Below are positions 22,521 through 60,960 of a stretch of 64,000 bases of DNA, piece after piece. This stretch comes from Halichoerus grypus (Eukaryota > Chordata > Mammalia > Carnivora > Phocidae), in assembly GCF_964656455.1 (NCBI RefSeq), contig NC_135717.1, forward strand, positions 150,277,793 through 150,341,792, written 5' to 3'. Below the pieces are notes generated by a model. That model was given only the letters and a program-made list of their open reading frames with translations. It was not told where the DNA came from and searched no databases. A program made the position numbers and the translations under genes. Position 1 is the first letter of the stretch. Each line of letters opens with the position of its first letter.

Positions 22521-22579
22521 GAGGTAAGGAGGCCCTGCAAAAGGGTAAGGTAAGGAGGTAAGGAGGCCCTGCAAAAGGG
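22521..22579. repeat. 25-bp tandem duplication, period 34
   Basis: The 25-bp segment at 22521-22545 is repeated exactly at 22555-22579, with a 9-bp GTAAGG-rich spacer. It lies immediately left of a MER5A copy. A small local duplication. Confidence 0.9.
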
Positions 22580-34289: not shown

Positions 34290-35450
34290 CTGAAATGATA
34301 TTTATTGAAGCACCTATTATATGGCATGATTTTTGTTGGTGCTGGGGCATAGATTGTGTTCTCAAGGAAACAAAGTCTGAGATGGAGATTTGCTTGCGGG
34401 ATGTTTATTGGGGTGTGCTCTCAGGAACATTTTGAAAAAAGTGAAAGCAGCAGCATGGACAGAGGGACAGGATGAATTGTAAATACATGGTTCTGCAAAA
34501 GGCCTCAGCCTGTGTCCTGAGAGCTCTTGAGCTAGATGGCCCTTCTGTATTACCCCAGACTGTGGCAAGGGGTCTGGTCCTTCCTACTGTCATTCACTAG
34601 TCCCTGAGTGGAGGGAAGGTACTTAACCTTGGTGAGGCAGAAACAGCCAGCATTTTCCCCAGGGAAGGTACTTAACCTTGGTGAGGCAGAGCTCCTTCAT
34701 CCAAGAGCAATTACAAGAAAGGAACTCAACTTCAGAACACTGGGGGATGGAATACAATGGTGAAAACACAGAAGAGTACCTCCCTTCATGATGTTTATCT
34801 ATTAGTGGAGGAATGGGAGAAGCTGTCAAAATATTTTTGCCCCCTGTGGCAGATGGTGGTATGTTGCAAGGAGAAAATAAGGCAAGGGAGGGGGAGCTCC
34901 AGGGTGGGGGCTGGGAATGAGGCAATTGAGGTAAGGCTTCATTAAGAAGATGACATTTGAGCAAATATTTGGAAAAGATGAGGAGGAGACACAAGTGGGC
35001 AGCTCGGGACAGCGCATTTTTGTGGGAGAGAATAGTCCCATGCCAAAGTCCAAGAGGGAGCATTGACTACAGTGCTTGAGGAACAGAGTGAGGTGAGGGA
35101 AGTGTGGCTGGTTCACAGCGGGCCAGAACAGAGTCAGAGATCAAAGCCAAAGAAATAATAGGAGGTAGGATCCCAAATAATGCATAGGGGTTTATGACTC
35201 ATTAAGGACTTTGGCATCTATTCTGAATGAGTTAGGAAGTTATATGAGGGTTCTGAACAGAGGTGTGAACGATCTGACAAATTTTAAAAGGCTCCCTCTT
35301 ATGTGTTAAGAACAGATTGTAGGGAGACAAAGGCAAAAATAGAATAAGAAGGAAGCTTTTGCAGTGGTCTAGGCAAGCACGGGCAGGTGGTAGTTCATGC
35401 CAGGGTAGTAATAGTGGGGGTGGGGAGAAGTGGCTGCATTCTTGATCCTT
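34290..35450 (-). mobile_element. L2 LINE 3' region, interrupted
   Basis: Antisense L2: 'tatttattgaagcacctatt' and 'ggtgctggggcatag' at the left, then from about 34740 'ggggatggaatacaatgg', 'gaagatgacatttgagcaaa', 'cattaaggactttggcatct', 'gcagtggtctaggcaagc'. The middle, 34350-34735, is a different old element, possibly an LTR, lying inside L2. Frames at 34362-35116 are shadows. Confidence 0.65.
34612..34690. repeat. 30-bp direct duplication, period 49
   Basis: The 30-bp segment 34612-34641 recurs exactly at 34661-34690, separated by a 19-bp spacer. A recent local duplication within an old interspersed repeat. Confidence 0.95.
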
Positions 35451-35694: not shown

Positions 35695-36915
35695 TTTATC
35701 AATATGCTTTTACTTTTGTTACTTCATTTGGTCTCAAAATATATACTCTAAGGTAACAAGGCAAGCGTTATCAACTTTGATTTATAAATTAAGACGTATA
35801 ATGTCATTAATTTAGATGATTTATATGAAACTGCACCAAAAATTAATGAAAACATCTCTGGGCTTAATTCTTATTACAGTGTTCCTTCAAGTGTAGAGGA
35901 AGGCTTCTGACATGTCGGTGTTGAAATTTCTTAAGATGTCTCATAAATCTCATAAGAAGCAAAACTCACCCTACTTTTTGGGTGGATTTAAAAAGTGTGT
36001 TCTTCAACTTTTAAATTTTAAAGGTTTCTTTTAAAGAAACATATGCTATCCCAGCTGTCTACATCTAATAAAGCAGCCACTGACAGAAGGGGAAAAAGTG
36101 GAATATAACATTTCAGAGGTTCTTCAGATACACTGAATACTATGAATGCAGTTAAATCAGGTTTACGTGCAAGTATAGGAATTATGGGAAGGGGAAACAT
36201 CCTATAATGTATGTAGAATCCCAGACTTTCAAAGGCAATACTGTTTACAATGTAGAGCTTATTAACAAGCCAGAAAAATCATAGGTTATTAAACAAACAA
36301 ACAAAGAAAAATGCTGGCTGTTTCTGGTAGTCATGTATTTAAAAATCACATGTTTAATTATAAGATGTTTTTATAACATTTCATGTTAATAAGATTTATA
36401 ATGTTTTTCCTCTGCCTCATGATCCCTATGTGAATAATTATACAAAGAAGTCAGTTCATGTCCCCTTGCGCTTTACTTTCTCATGGTCAGAAGTAGTAAT
36501 ATTGTAACAGTTTATAGATACTGTTTAAGAATTTTCTTAAAAGTCACAATGGTCAAAATCAGTAAAAAAAAAAAAAAAGGAATCAACACAAAGAGAAAAA
36601 CCATTAGACTTACTAACAACTAATGCTGTACATTCAAGTTGAATCAATAACTTAAATAAGACTATTTTTCATATAATTGACTGACAAAGCTGATATTTTT
36701 TATGACTCCTTGTATGATTTATGTTTAAAAGTCAATTTGGTTTCAGACACAGATCTTTCTAATCTCACTTTGCTTGCAAGAGAGCAACAATAATAGGGCT
36801 GTCAGGGCCCAAAAGGGAGAGGGAGGGCTTCCCAAGGTGCCTTCCCCTTCCAGATAGTCTCTCCTCTTCAGGGGAGGTTCCAATAAAAACCTGCTAAAAG
36901 GACAATTATGGGAGC
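35695..36915. other. Intergenic, no gene seen
   Basis: AT-rich, with a short AAAC tract near 36290 and a poly-A run near 36565. The 60-codon minus frame at 36018-36200 is unsupported. Confidence 0.5.
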
Positions 36916-36917
36916 CC

Positions 36918-37076
36918 CAACTGCACCTTACAGAATCATCTGGGAAGCTTGTTAAATATGTGCATTCTTATACCCCACTTGCAAACTCTCCCAAATAGGA
37001 ATCTCTAGGGTGGGACCCAGAAATCTTATTGAATAAGATCTCTGGATATTTTCACACACTAACGTTTGGGAACCAC
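36918..37076 (-). mobile_element. MER5A-like hAT DNA transposon
   Basis: 'agaatcatctgggaagcttgtta', 'aggaatctctagggtgggacc' and 'aacgtttgggaaccacac' reproduce the MER5A order. Non-autonomous. Confidence 0.75.
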
Positions 37077-38990: not shown

Positions 38991-39189
38991 TTATTTATTT
39001 ACTTATTTTTAAAGATTTTATTTATTTTTTGACAGAGAGACAGCGAGAGAGGGAACACAAGCAGGGGGAGTGGGAGAAGCAGGCCCCCCGCTGAGCAGGG
39101 AGCCCGATATGGGGCTCAATCCCAAGACCCCAGGATCATGACCTGAGCCGAAGGCAGATGCTCAATGACTGAGCCACCCAGGCGCCCCA
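38991..39189 (-). mobile_element. CanSINE
   Basis: Antisense full-length copy with T-rich end, 'gagagagggaacacaagcag', 'gcaggccccccgctgagcag', 'aggatcatgacctgagccg', ending 'gagccacccaggcgcccc'. Duplications 'cagttgccaa' at 38977 and 39190. Confidence 0.97.
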
Positions 39190-40350: not shown

Positions 40351-40553
40351 GGGCTCCTGGGTGGCTCAGTCGTTAAGCGTCTGCCTTCGGCTCAGGTCAT
40401 GAACCCAGGGTCCTGGGATTGAGCCCCGCATTGGGCTCCCTGCTCCACAGGAAGCCTGCTTCCCCTCCCTGCTCCCCCTGCTTGTGTTCCCCCTCTCACT
40501 GTGTCTCTCTCTGTCAAATAAGTAAATAAAACCTTTAAAAAAATAAAATAAAC
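40351..40553 (+). mobile_element. CanSINE
   Basis: Copy starting 'gggctcctgggtggctcagt', with 'ccttcggctcaggtcatgaa' and an A-rich tail, bounded by exact 10-bp duplications 'tcataaggtg' at 40341-40350 and 40554-40563. Confidence 0.97.
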
Positions 40554-43921: not shown

Positions 43922-44201
43922 TTTAAAAAATATTTTATTTATTTATTTGAGAGAGAGAGAGACCGAGATAGCGAGAAAGGGCACGAGCAGGGAGGAGAGG
44001 GAGAAGCAGGCGCCCCGCGGAGCAGGGAGCCTGATGCAGGGCTCTGTCCCAGGACCTCGGGATCATGACCTGAGCCGAAGGCAGATGCTTAACCGACTGA
44101 GCCACCCAGGGAGCCCGATGTGGGGCTCGATCCCAGGACCCTGGGATCATGACCTGAGCTGAAGGCAGACGCTTAATGGACTGAGCCACCCAAGCGTCCC
44201 T
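43922..44201 (-). mobile_element. CanSINE with internal 84-bp duplication
   Basis: Antisense copy with a normal T/GA-rich end at 43922-43975. The head portion is duplicated in tandem: 44024-44107 and 44108-44191 have an 84-bp period with several differences. Host duplications 'aaaataagtgttt' at 43909-43921 and 44202-44214 bound the whole composite, so it behaves as one insertion. Confidence 0.92.
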
Positions 44202-46224: not shown

Positions 46225-47015
46225 TAGGCCAATGGACACATACTCTTATTTTTATTTCTCAGGATTAAGGTAGTATTAAGCATTGTTTACTTCAGCAATT
46301 TGGATTTAAAATTTAAGCATAAAGATCAATTCCAAATTTGTTGTCTTTTCTGCTGTTGATATTAAAATCAAAACAAATACTGTCAGTACAAATTGCTGAT
46401 ATTAATTAGTGGTATAAATGCCAAAAGGAATTCAACATAGATTTATCGCAGTAATAATTTAGATGAAATTTTCTTATCAGTATAAAATTATAAGTATAAA
46501 AATAATAATCTATGGAAATCCAAGAGTCTTGTGGGTCTGTTTTCCTTCTTTCTTTTACAGACTTTGGTAGTTTATATTTACGGCTTAGTTTCATGGGTCA
46601 AAAAGACCTATTTTACTATTATTAAACACCGAGATATTTGGTAACACATTCAATAAATGATACAAATATCTTAACATGGTGCTTTGTGCCAACCTCTTTA
46701 AAATATTCCTTTTCTATGTATTAATATACGTGTCCCCCCAAAATGCATCTGTAAACACAACAGAAACACTGTGATCCTTAGTTCACATCTAAAAGTTTTT
46801 CCTTTGCCACTAGGTGGCACCTATATATTAATAGTTGAAGAGCACATGTTCTGAAAGAAGGCAAAACTAAGAGTAAATGAAAGAAAGGAAAGTTAGTTTA
46901 ATTTTGTTTTGTATTTAAATATTTGTCCTGCGATATACTTCAAGGCGATGGGTTTATTGCAGGAAATAGTGTGGGATTCACCAATTATTTTTAAGAAAAG
47001 GAAAACATGCTTTAT
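46225..47015. other. Intergenic, contains a CTCF-like motif
   Basis: AT-rich with no gene. The motif at 46807-46820 is listed separately. Confidence 0.5.
46807..46820 (+). promoter_or_regulatory. CTCF-like motif, plus orientation
   Basis: 'ccactaggtggcac' fits the CTCF core CCASYAGRKGGCRS at all 14 positions. It points right, towards CCER1, and is convergent with the minus-strand motifs at 58941 and 60460. Occupancy unknown. Confidence 0.5.
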
Positions 47016-53439: not shown

Positions 53440-54663
53440 CTAACAGTTAATGTCCTCTACCATGAGGAGAGCTTCCTGTGGCACTTTGGGAATTATCTGT
53501 TTGGGGCTTAAATAAGTACAGTTGATAAAGTTCTCTCTCTCCTCCTCAGCCCCCACTAAGAATGATAAAGGCATTTCCAGAGGTAAATGATTCTCTTCCT
53601 CTCTCTGCTCCTCTTCCTCCGCCCCCTCCTCTTCCTCTTCTGTATCCTCCTCTTCCCCTCCGTCCTCCTCCCCCTCCTCCACACAGTCAGCCTCTTCAAC
53701 CTCCTCTTCATCTTCGGCCTCTGCCTCCTCATCCTCCTCCTCGCTCTCCTCCTCCTCCTTCCCGTCACACTCCTCGTCACACTCCTCCTCGTCACACTCC
53801 TCCTCCTCCTTCTTCTCGTCGTCGTCGTCCTCCTCCTCCCCGAGCTGTGCGGCTGGAGACTGGTCTTCCTCGTCGGGGTCGGGACCGAAGACCCAAGAGG
53901 GATTCTGCACGAAGCTGTACAGAGTTTCCGGCGGCTCCGCGTCTTCCGCGCCGCCGCTGGGGGGCGCGTCGTCCCCGGGGCAGCCCTCGGGGGAGGCCGC
54001 GCCGCGCGCCTGGGCCTGCTGCGCCCGCAGCGCCTCCTGCTGGCGCTCCAGCTTCTCTTGCTGCCGCATGTCCTCGTAGATCTGGTTCATGATGAACTGG
54101 GTGGTGTTCCGCGGCGCCCGCATGCCGGGGGCCCGCCACCCGTACAGGTTGACTGGCCGTAGCAGCGTGCTCAGATCCACGGGCGGGCTCCTCGGGAAGG
54201 AGCGGCGAGGGTGGCGGCGCAGGCCGCGGCCCCTGCGGCCCCAGCGCTTCTTCCTGCAGGGGGGCCTCGCCCAGCCGGGGTTCCAGGGCCCGCGCCAGCA
54301 GGAGCAGCAGCAGAGGCAGAGCGGGTGCAGACCAAACACCCGGATCACTTGCACTCGGCCAGGAGGCTTCCAGAATCCCGCTGGAGGTGGGCGCCAGGGC
54401 CCTCCCCAGCGCCCCCAGTTAGAGCACACGGCCCAATAGGGCCGTCGGGGTGGTTGGAACCAAGGGCCCGGACCGTGCTGTTGCTTCGGCTGTTTCCTGG
54501 GGGGCTCGTACTCAGACTTGGGACCATAGCGGTGGCGCCGCTTGTATATCGGAGCGCCCCTGCGCCTTCGGTGGCAGGTAGACCAGGTACGTAACGGGGC
54601 GGAGGACGCCCAGCCGCCGCCCAGGTTGAGAGGGTCCTCCCTTTTGTCGAGGGTCTGGGTCAT
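53440..54663 (-). CDS. CCER1: Coiled-coil glutamate-rich protein 1
   Basis: This intact single-exon frame encodes 407 residues, about the length of human CCER1 (formerly C12orf12). Residues 1-180 are Arg/Pro/Trp-rich with a compact cysteine group at 116-122 (CxCCCxC). Residues 187-220 (FIMNQIYEDMRQQEKLERQQ onward) form a predicted coiled coil. Residues about 275-357 are almost pure Glu/Asp, and the last 50 (HLPLEMPL..IIPKVPQEALL) are the conserved tail. The family is testis-specific; published work describes CCER1 as a nuclear condensate-forming factor in spermatids acting in the histone-to-protamine exchange. The mix of a basic N-half and acidic C-half fits that chromatin role. The start MTQTLDKREDPLNLGG matches the known mammalian start. 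The acidic tract is coded by repetitive GAG/GAA/GAT and is likely length-variable. No breaks are seen. Confidence 0.97.
   Translation of the reverse strand: MTQTLDKREDPLNLGGGWASSAPLRTWSTCHRRRRGAPIYKRRHRYGPKSEYEPPRKQPKQQHGPGPWFQPPRRPYWAVCSNWGRWGGPWRPPPAGFWKPPGRVQVIRVFGLHPLCLCCCSCWRGPWNPGWARPPCRKKRWGRRGRGLRRHPRRSFPRSPPVDLSTLLRPVNLYGWRAPGMRAPRNTTQFIMNQIYEDMRQQEKLERQQEALRAQQAQARGAASPEGCPGDDAPPSGGAEDAEPPETLYSFVQNPSWVFGPDPDEEDQSPAAQLGEEEDDDDEKKEEEECDEEECDEECDGKEEEESEEEDEEAEAEDEEEVEEADCVEEGEEDGGEEEDTEEEEEGAEEEEQREEENHLPLEMPLSFLVGAEEERENFINCTYLSPKQIIPKVPQEALLMVEDINC
53590..53840 (-). repeat. CCER1: Purine-rich GAG/GAA repeat coding the acidic tract
   Basis: About 250 bp of strand-asymmetric (purine on the minus strand) cryptic repeat coding residues about 275-357. 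It includes a small minisatellite at about 53763-53812 in which a unit containing 'tcacactcctc' occurs three times, giving the three CDEE/CDG-type motifs. Prone to replication slippage. Confidence 0.85.
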
Positions 54664-55194: not shown

Positions 55195-55575
55195 GGCCGA
55201 GGTCGTTCTCCCTGTGCGAGGAGGGGGTTCCGGGTGGAACGAGGTGCCCCGTGAATGTTCGCAGGGGGCTTGTGACGCAGTTTTTGAAAGAGGGAAAGCG
55301 GACCCTAGGCTGGGGTTGTGCTTCCCAACTCAGACAACGTTTGGGGCAGTTAATTTGAAACCTTTGTACCACCTGGAGGTGCGGGGATAAAGATGATGGA
55401 CCTTTAGCTGAACCCCTTGGAAGGGGGGGAGAACTTGTATATTGGAAAACGTATATCCTACACCTTTGGAGGTCGAGGGGATAGAGGAAGAGGCCCTAGA
55501 GTCAGAAAACTGGGTTCCACTCCTTACCTTATGGCCTGTGCACACTCTTCAAACTCCTGGGGGTTGTAGTACATC
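55195..55575. other. CCER1 upstream flank
   Basis: GC content falls to background. The 21 bases at 55453-55473 are found again at 60484-60504 (see findings). No gene. Confidence 0.5.
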
Positions 55576-55577
55576 AT

Positions 55578-55830
55578 ACGTGAAACACGACCACGAACAT
55601 TTATTGCGTGTCCTTGCAGCAAGCATGGGCTCATGGCACGTAATCCTAACACCTATAGGCTCTGTGAGGTAGGCATTGTTACCACGCCTCACAGATGAGG
55701 AAATTGAGAGGTTAATATACCCAAGGTCGTGGGGACAAGGAACTTTGGGACTAGTATTTAAACCTAAGCCTCTTTGGCCCCCGAACCAAATTCTTCACCA
55801 CGTGGCTGCACTATACTGCCCATCTACCTT
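55578..55830 (+). mobile_element. MIR SINE
   Basis: 'aacatttattgcgtgtcctt', 'taatcctaacacctataggc', 'ctgtgaggtaggcattgtta', 'cagatgaggaaattgagagg' and 'acccaaggtcgtggggac' give a clear, near-full MIR. Confidence 0.9.
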
Positions 55831-58269: not shown

Positions 58270-60445
58270 ACTTGAGTTCAATATGTCCTTCATAGTAACT
58301 AGTTATGACTTTATTTGGGAGATTTTAATGGCATGCAGCATTTTGAAATTCCATTAAATGCTGTATGACAGCATAGGTTATGCTATGCTTTATGTTACAT
58401 AGGACATTAAACTGTTAAGTTGAAAACACACTACTATCTTGGTGTTATTTTTTTGTGCATTTGTGTGAATTGAAAAGGATGAATTCTAACACTTGATGGC
58501 AGTAGTAACTCATTCAAGATTCAGTCAGCAAGAGCACCCTATACAAAACAAACTATGAGAAGATAGGTACTTCATTTTTATATTTATCAAGAATGGCATA
58601 TTTAAACTATTCCAGATTGCCAATGTTAATTACCCTTTATTCTGGTGCAGTGTAATTGGGTATATGTATTAGATTTAGCGTTTTTCAATTGGCTTTTGGA
58701 AAGCAAGGCTCAGCTAATTAAACTTATAAATAAAATTTTTTAGAGAGAAGTTGGATATACCTGAGAAATTGGTCAGATAAATAAAATTCAACAAATATTT
58801 TTTTAGATCCATCTTTGTAACCAGCTAAGTTCTATGGGATATGAAAAAATAAATAAACGGAATGCATTTTATACACTCTCAAAAACTTGCCTTTTGCAAC
58901 TCTGAAGATAACCATGTACAGTCACTTGAAACCAAAAAGGTAGGCGCCATCTGTTGGTCATAGAAGCTAAATACAAGGTATTAAACCTTCCCAGCTTTTC
59001 AAAAAGTGAGATGAAATTAACTCATTTCTTTCTCTTGATAATCTGGGAAGTTGTGGGGTTAGTTGGAAAATTGGTGAGGCGTGTTGTGCATCAGGGAGTA
59101 ACATTGTGACACTTCTCCATTAATGAATTCTCATGTCACTTAAGTAAATTATGAAGAGAAATCTAACCCTGTAAAGAGGTAACCACAAAGACAGTTTCTG
59201 CAGATTTAAGGAGGATGGGAATGTTGCACCCATAATAGTACTATGTGTAGGTATTATTCACTATCACCCTTTGAAAATATTATTAACCTTTTAATTACTC
59301 AGGATTTTCAGAGAATTAATCTAACATATTGTAGTCATGACGTTTGAAAAACGTGTCGTTAGTAATGATTAATTAGGAATTGTTAGCATGGAAATGTAAT
59401 AAACATAAGTAATTTTAAAGTACACTATATTATGGGCAACAGAATGAAGTGCTTCCCCCCCCCCCGTGAAAAATGACCTGTAATATTTGAGAAAAATAAA
59501 CATGTGTAACAATTGAATAAAGAAAAAAAAGTTACTAAAAAGTACAGCATTTAATCAGGGATCAGTTTTAGAATTAGAGCTTTCAATTAAGAATGTGAGG
59601 TGTTGGAAATGGCCCCGGAAATAGGATGCATTTAGAAGGAATACTAAAATGTTGTCATCACATTTTCAGGGCTATGGTAGCACTTTGTCCTTCTAGAAAT
59701 CATGGTGAATTAAATCTGCAGAGAAGCCTTGTGAGTAGGAAGCCATAACGCCTGGGAACATGTCAGTTGGCCCTATATGTTCGCATAATAATGCCCTTTT
59801 TCCTCCCGTTATTTTAATTCACTTCACTTTTTGCTACAACCCCTCAATTTTGTAATAACAGTGTTCAGGGAAGGCTGTGAGGGCAGAGTGGTTTCCAGGC
59901 TATTGGCGGGGAGATCTAAGATCATCAGTGAGGTTCCTGTGGGTAAGGCCTCATTATGACTTTTTCATGAGCCCCTTCCTCCATAAAAAAATAAAAATAA
60001 AAATTCTATTTTATGACTTGTTGCAATAAGGGTAAATATAAACCAGGCTAGGTTCATTACTCCATATTTATTTTCATTATCATCATTATTATCATTATCT
60101 TGCTTTCTTTTATGTTAAAAGAAATGAAAACATTTTCATAGGTCTCTAAAATCATTATCGGCCCTTGGCACCTGTGGAATGCTAAGCTGAAAACCCAGTT
60201 GAATCACATGGGACTTTTGACCTTCGTAAACTGAGAGATAATAAGCTGCTGATTTTGTGCCAATTTTTTAAAGGCAACAATAGAAAACTCAGCAGTTGCA
60301 ATGTTAGAATTCTACTTTTAGTCTGATTCAGGATACTGTATTTATGAGGGAGTATATCTAACAAGTCAAAATGAAAATTCCATATTTATCACTGGTTTAT
60401 AATGATGGGTTGATGGTTATTCTTTTTTAAGTTTTATTAACTTTG
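58270..60445. other. CCER1-EPYC intergenic, no gene
   Basis: AT-rich, with no named repeat. Contains the CTCF-like motif at 58941 and a poly-C run at 59454-59465. Confidence 0.5.
58941..58960 (-). promoter_or_regulatory. CTCF-like motif, minus orientation (original copy)
   Basis: The minus strand reads 'tgaccaacagatggcgccta', one deviation from the CTCF core CCASYAGRKGGCRSY and matching outside bases too. It lies within the 38-bp segment that recurs at 60447-60484. Occupancy unknown. Confidence 0.5.
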
Positions 60446-60446
60446 A

Positions 60447-60545
60447 GAAACCAAAAAGGTAGGCGCCATCTGTTGGTCATAGAATATCCTACACCTTTGG
60501 AGGTATAGGATATTATGATTAATTATGATTAAATGATTAAATGAG
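60447..60545. repeat. Composite templated insertion
   Basis: 60447-60484 is identical to 58928-58965 (38 bp). 60484-60504 is identical to 55453-55473 (21 bp), joined with a 1-base overlap. Then 'taggatat' (60506-60513) is the reverse complement of 'atatccta' (60484-60491), making an imperfect hairpin. The tract ends in two 10-bp units 'ttatgattaa' (60513-60532) and 'atgattaa'. Both source segments are in the same orientation as the copy. Confidence 0.9.
60460..60479 (-). promoter_or_regulatory. CTCF-like motif, minus orientation (duplicated copy)
   Basis: Exact copy of the motif at 58941-58960, carried in by the composite insertion. Confidence 0.45.
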
Positions 60546-60960
60546 TGCATGGTTAGTTTTCCCCATAGGTCTCAAGAAAATTAATAGATATTTTTCATTA
60601 TGACAAACATATCAGTATTTGTATTTTAAACTGAAACAAGGAAATGAGTATGCATCTACTGTGGAGAAACATGAGAACAATTCTCTTCAATCACTGCACT
60701 ACAGAAATTCGGGATTTAGCTCTAGTATCTACAAATAATGGCATCTGACAGATGATATGGAGTAATGAGAAAAACTCAGATAATATAGATGAAGAAATAT
60801 ATTTGCCTGAAAGAGATAGTTGAAAATAAAAATATATATTGTATGTTTTTAAAAATTAGAGGTGTGCAATTACCAATTGTCCCTTTTTTTACTTTAATAG
60901 ATTAATTCAGAAATAGATTATGCAATGATGAAAAAGTTTGATACTAAACCATTTTAGTGA
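60546..60960. other. Intergenic, no gene seen
   Basis: AT-rich, with no recognised feature. Confidence 0.45.

Follow-up and report, generated by a model that had tools for sequence, protein, structure and literature searches.

How did a short segment of the Halichoerus grypus genome come to join, at a single base, exact copies of two sequences that lie at separate sites nearby? The segment lies upstream of CCER1, ~5.8 kb from its start codon, within the 64-kb stretch of DNA that was analyzed as a whole, here called the window. Judged by its sequence, we consider it probable that this composite is a templated insertion that drew on two donors and on fold-back synthesis, generated by microhomology-driven template switching. 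The coordinates of all features are given in Table 1.

Table 1 Features of the composite, its donors and the neighboring gene.
Feature	Position	Strand	Details
Tract 1, copy of donor 1	60447-60484	+	38/38 identical to 58928-58965
Tract 2, copy of donor 2	60484-60504	+	21/21 identical to 55453-55473
Donor 1	58928-58965	+	Exact 38-bp match to 60447-60484
Donor 2	55453-55473	+	Exact 21-bp match; ~0.8 kb upstream of CCER1 start codon
CTCF-type motif in copy	60461-60479	minus	TGACCAACAGATGGCGCCT, 18.99 bits, matrix taken as MA0139.1
CTCF-type motif in donor 1	58942-58960	minus	18.99 bits, matrix taken as MA0139.1
Imperfect palindrome, 32 nt	60483-60514		14-bp arms, one mismatch, TTGG loop 60497-60500
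Putative fold-back copy	60505-60514	+	9/10 bases as predicted
Tail repeats	60513-60544	+	TTATGATTAA 60513-60522 and 60523-60532, ATGATTAA 60533-60540, ATGA; read from sequence, slippage-like
CCER1 open reading frame, 407 aa	53440-54663	minus	PF15482, E 1.1e-129; nearest gene identified

The 38-bp match to a donor ~1.5 kb away and the 21-bp match to a donor ~5 kb away, reported in the initial annotation as meeting with a 1-base overlap, were both reproduced as exact, maximal matches, and base A60484 is common to the two tracts. Calculated from base composition only, chance would yield ~8e-8 matches for a 21-mer whose start is fixed and ~3e-13 for 38-mer pairs anywhere in the window, so that the tract matches are not due to chance. 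Each tract exists as only two copies in the 64 kb. A comparison of 60400-60620 with both strands of the window returned no further exact match of at least 14 bp beyond the two donors; searches with a 29-base pattern in viral and prokaryotic contigs and with the 241-base region in plasmids gave no match, which is uninformative for a mammal. The composite has identifiable templates, and more than one of them, namely the donors of 38 and 21 bp plus a fold-back.

Tract 2 overlaps an inverted repeat, previously described as an 8-bp repeat within a 30-nt palindrome. The repeat exists, but its exact arms measure 9 bp (60483-60491 with 60506-60514) and the palindrome extends over 32 nt. A scan that required stems no shorter than 13, no more than one mismatch and loops of 3-8 returned three rows for the window, this hairpin accounting for two of them, and 0, 0, 0, 0 and 2 rows for five Markov nulls; the hairpin is the best of its type in the window. 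The sole other window hairpin within these thresholds lies at 37017-37045. Folded as DNA, the hairpin of the composite reached a z score of -3.5, with 0/200 shuffles equally stable, and 0/300 shuffles were equally stable when a tighter stretch was folded.

The match to donor 2 stops exactly at AGGT, where the putative fold-back copy starts. An ACCT whose start precedes that of AGGT by eight bases is available for pairing, which gives a 4-bp AGGT/ACCT stem at the fold-back junction. Fold-back copying predicts GTAGGATATT and the observed sequence is ATAGGATATT, with nine of the ten bases in agreement. The arm carries one mismatch followed by a 2-nt skip; its pairing reaches A60483, then a 2-nt bulge and then TCAT, and both A60483 and TCAT lie within donor-1 sequence. 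Because the arm pairs into donor-1 sequence, the fold-back would most simply have taken place after the donor switch, with synthesis proceeding from left to right.

Two other sources of the palindrome were tried and rejected. Donor 2 has TATCC/GGATA arms, but as a strong pre-existing quasi-palindrome it fails, its fold being not above shuffles (41/300). An ungapped collinear continuation of donor 2 past 55473 agrees at 5/12 positions and is weaker than the fold-back. By eye, 60505-60512 can alternatively be read as donor 2 running on collinearly through GGATA, if two mismatches and a 2-nt gap are allowed, and the hairpin would then be partly coincidental.

Exact microhomology at the donor switch amounts to 1 bp, and 6 of the 11 upstream bases match donor 2, a level that 4.2% of 6300 placements reach. 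At the left junction, homology without gaps is 1/12; a gapped reading by eye, ACTTTGAGAAACC versus ACTTGAAACC, is better. The 10-bp tandem units noted after the hairpin were seen as two full TTATGATTAA units and then a partial ATGATTAA. A third donor for this tail was sought and rejected: the best match, an 11-mer (60515 to 59365), is not above the null, in which 22 of 62 stretches gave at least 11 (300 starts were drawn and 238 dropped as near the site or <72% AT). On reading 60200-60800, for an insertion whose limits are not fixed, we saw neither a target-site duplication of at least 5 bp nor the poly(A) of LINE-1-mediated class 1 TSIPs.

From the tract matches, the hairpin and the repeats, all of which are directly observed, we infer the order and direction of the steps, their belonging to a single event and the type of enzyme. 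The process would have begun in the germline with a break or a stalled fork near 60447, and the growing plus strand would have copied 38 nt from ~1.5 kb away. It would then have switched, on 1 nt of exact microhomology or possibly on longer imperfect homology, to copy 21 nt from ~5 kb away. Snapping back on its own AGGT/ACCT stem, the strand would have copied ~10 nt in reverse across the junction, and slippage on short ATGATTAA-like units would have preceded joining to the right flank.

Two pathways are candidates, polymerase-theta end joining and MMBIR/FoSTeS. The initial annotation had proposed this pattern, and the anatomy, with two donors at one base, a fold-back arm and short repeats, does fit it better than the testable rivals, but sequence alone fits both pathways and does not separate them. 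A templated insertion together with a snap-back tract, as expected of polymerase theta, is present, and other pathways predict the same. Its anatomy suggests that the composite is an insertion, that its segments are unique and that it arose at once. A fold-back arm that appears to run through the junction of donor 1 with donor 2 lends mild support to a single event, which keeps the standing of an interpretation. Against the template-switch reading stand the poor left-junction homology (1/12), the 1-bp microhomology at the switch, the mismatch and 2-nt skip of the fold-back arm, its possible gapped reading as donor 2 and the tail without a third donor, as well as the 5-kb distance of donor 2, compared with a resection extent of ~2 kb given in PMC7615360.

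A stepwise origin would distribute the same anatomy over two or three events, with tract 1 followed later by tract 2 and later still by palindrome perfection and slippage. Donor 2 already possesses short inverted arms (TATCC/GGATA and ACCT/AGGT) that make a later quasi-palindrome change possible, and the mismatch in the fold-back arm also speaks for this course; two later insertions at one base would however be a coincidence, and the arm appears to span the junction, which renders such a history unlikely. It is very unlikely that 60447-60504 came first and that 58928 and 55453 each later received a piece of it. Exact identity by itself has no direction, yet one independent copy would have had to stop, and another to start, at precisely base 60484, and the hairpin and repeats are found at the composite and not at 58928 or 55453 (donor-2 fold, again 41/300 shuffles).

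The strong CTCF-type motif in tract 1, whose identity selection could preserve, would suit segments that are dispersed repeats or an old conserved regulatory duplication of CTCF type and not a repair scar. Identity nonetheless covers the 19 bp of tract 1 outside the motif and all 21 bp of tract 2, and with each tract limited to its two copies in 64 kb we regard this explanation as highly improbable. Fold-back chimeras are a known library artefact, and a chimeric or fold-back read could in principle have produced the composite during assembly or library preparation. The sequence bears no sign of this and a short patch would hardly survive into the consensus, so that an artefact is scarcely credible.

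Exact identity had also been taken to indicate a recent origin. This is weakly supported: zero differences at 58 sites only bound divergence to below about 5% (95% upper limit, 5.0%) in tracts that were selected for identity, 19 sites of which fall into a CTCF-like motif possibly under selection. Under assumed rates, the age bound is ~11 Myr for 2.2e-9 substitutions per site and year, spans 6-25 Myr over 4e-9 to 1e-9, and becomes 9-37 Myr without the 19-bp motif; these bounds are optimistic because the tracts were chosen for exact identity.

The window contains 97 exact matches of at least 18 bp; a filter against low complexity and multiple copies removed 86 and left 11. Pairs at most 10 bp apart among the kept matches were found at the composite (60447-60504), at 34.6 kb, at 39.05-39.10 kb and at 40472-40491; abutting tracts are therefore not unique to 60447-60504. 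At 39.05-39.10 kb, 39051-39070 and 39072-39097 are separated by a 1-bp gap and look SINE-like by eye, and at 40472-40491 the whole tract is common to two matches. The region 34612-34690 comprises a 30-bp exact direct duplication (34612-34641 and 34661-34690) with a 19-bp filler, 34638-34656, which overlaps the first copy by 4 bp, lies 4 bp from the second and matches 36308-36326 in inverted orientation over 19 bp, with a 4-bp CAGA overlap. It looks like a second candidate patchwork scar, as if templated from 1.7 kb away. This second candidate weakens any claim to rarity and fits an ordinary mutational process; patchwork scars may be ordinary.

Further repeats were seen in the window. A 25-bp exact direct repeat (22521-22545 and 22555-22579) encloses a 9-bp GGTAAG-like filler. 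At 44023-44192, an 84-bp tandem repeat is present in two head-to-tail copies with 87% matches, which we take to resemble CAN-SINE sequence; CAN-SINE-like sequence in the window presumably fits a carnivoran. A possible exon at ~55510-55600 was rejected, as it had no Pfam match, and it adjoins what we take to be an old MIR repeat. No Rfam family of structured RNA was detected at gathering scores within the 64-kb window.

Germline insertions assembled from several templates have already been reported in humans, and the composite fits that known kind. Complex multi-switch events account for 33/103 (D1) and 26/99 (D2) of the filtered human germline calls in PMC8421209, with at least 1 bp of microhomology at 138/155 and 135/148 resolvable junctions. 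These complex MMB-TI events, linked to MMBIR, share with the composite one insertion from several templates, and carry microhomology or microhomeology at their junctions; they differ in that the tool sought templates within 100 bp, whereas the composite has donors 1.5 and 5.0 kb off. With polymerase theta, untemplated addition occurs alongside snap-back and copying in trans (PMC4912351), and its scars likewise combine trans copying with cis snap-back. The median insertion in one assay of that study was, however, 7 bp, and the composite tracts of 38 and 21 bp are longer, which makes a more processive copier possible.

Short-range template switches in apes often leave perfect inverted repeats through reverse copying, but the model invokes one local switch (PMC7954356), whereas in the composite two direct-orientation donors come first. 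Yeast fold-backs include inverted duplications of 5-34 bp formed via microhomology beside a break, and distant insertions too (PMC11724301); that system is yeast, requiring polymerase delta and NHEJ or Alt-EJ. The composite may resemble class 2 TSIPs as a patch without target-site duplication or poly(A), but in the experiments behind those the inserts derived from distant regions (PMC5110952), whereas both composite donors are local. Insertions at meiotic hotspots bear template-switching and end-joining signatures (PMC7615360). None of the literature matches listed concerned two-donor snap-back insertions in carnivores or in mammalian evolution, a statement about those matches and not about the literature at large. 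The composite would be a compact multi-template scar with donors beyond the 100-bp template range of the PMC8421209 survey, and what it adds to the known kind is the pair of donors at 1.5 and 5 kb and a CTCF-type cargo.

This cargo is a strong sequence match to the CTCF core motif, scored with a matrix taken to be MA0139.1. Under this matrix, its two copies come fourth and fifth among the window positions, and 2 of 5,118,560 Markov-null positions score as high. The chance of such a motif in a 38-mer with ~40 placements ranges from ~1.6e-5 (null rate) to 1e-3 (window rate), figures to which a correction for many possible motifs applies, as the CTCF motif was recognized before testing. Three stronger CTCF-type matches, of 21.6-22.1 bits with this matrix, are located at 46804, 54028 and 20893, and the one at 54028 sits within the CCER1 reading frame.

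As read from the sequence, template switching may have given rise to a second copy of a candidate CTCF site, ~5.8 kb upstream of CCER1, a gene found to be germline-specific in a mouse study (PMC10713660). A link between the CTCF-type motif and the break or switch event is plausible. In tumours, loop anchors show an excess of structural-variant breakpoints, and in cell lines they are break-prone; one class of anchors bound by CTCF coincides in part with meiotic hotspots (PMC6066925). A more specific scenario, which we regard as distinctly unlikely, is that a working CTCF site (58942-58960) was copied through template switching at a CTCF/cohesin anchor to a place 1.5 kb farther from CCER1 on its upstream side, with its orientation kept, and that the same event captured a piece from upstream of CCER1 brought near by looping. 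The birth of CTCF sites has been addressed in Drosophila (PMC3491045); among the matches listed, no title or abstract opening reported CTCF-site duplication by templated insertion, which concerns these matches and not the literature as such.

The second candidate within the same 64 kb hints that scars of this kind are common and under-counted. If the motif binds CTCF, one round of repair is enough to duplicate an architectural site close to a germline gene, and the choice of donors may track chromatin looping. Should the anchor scenario hold true, repair scars would constitute a transposon-independent route by which CTCF sites spread in mammals.
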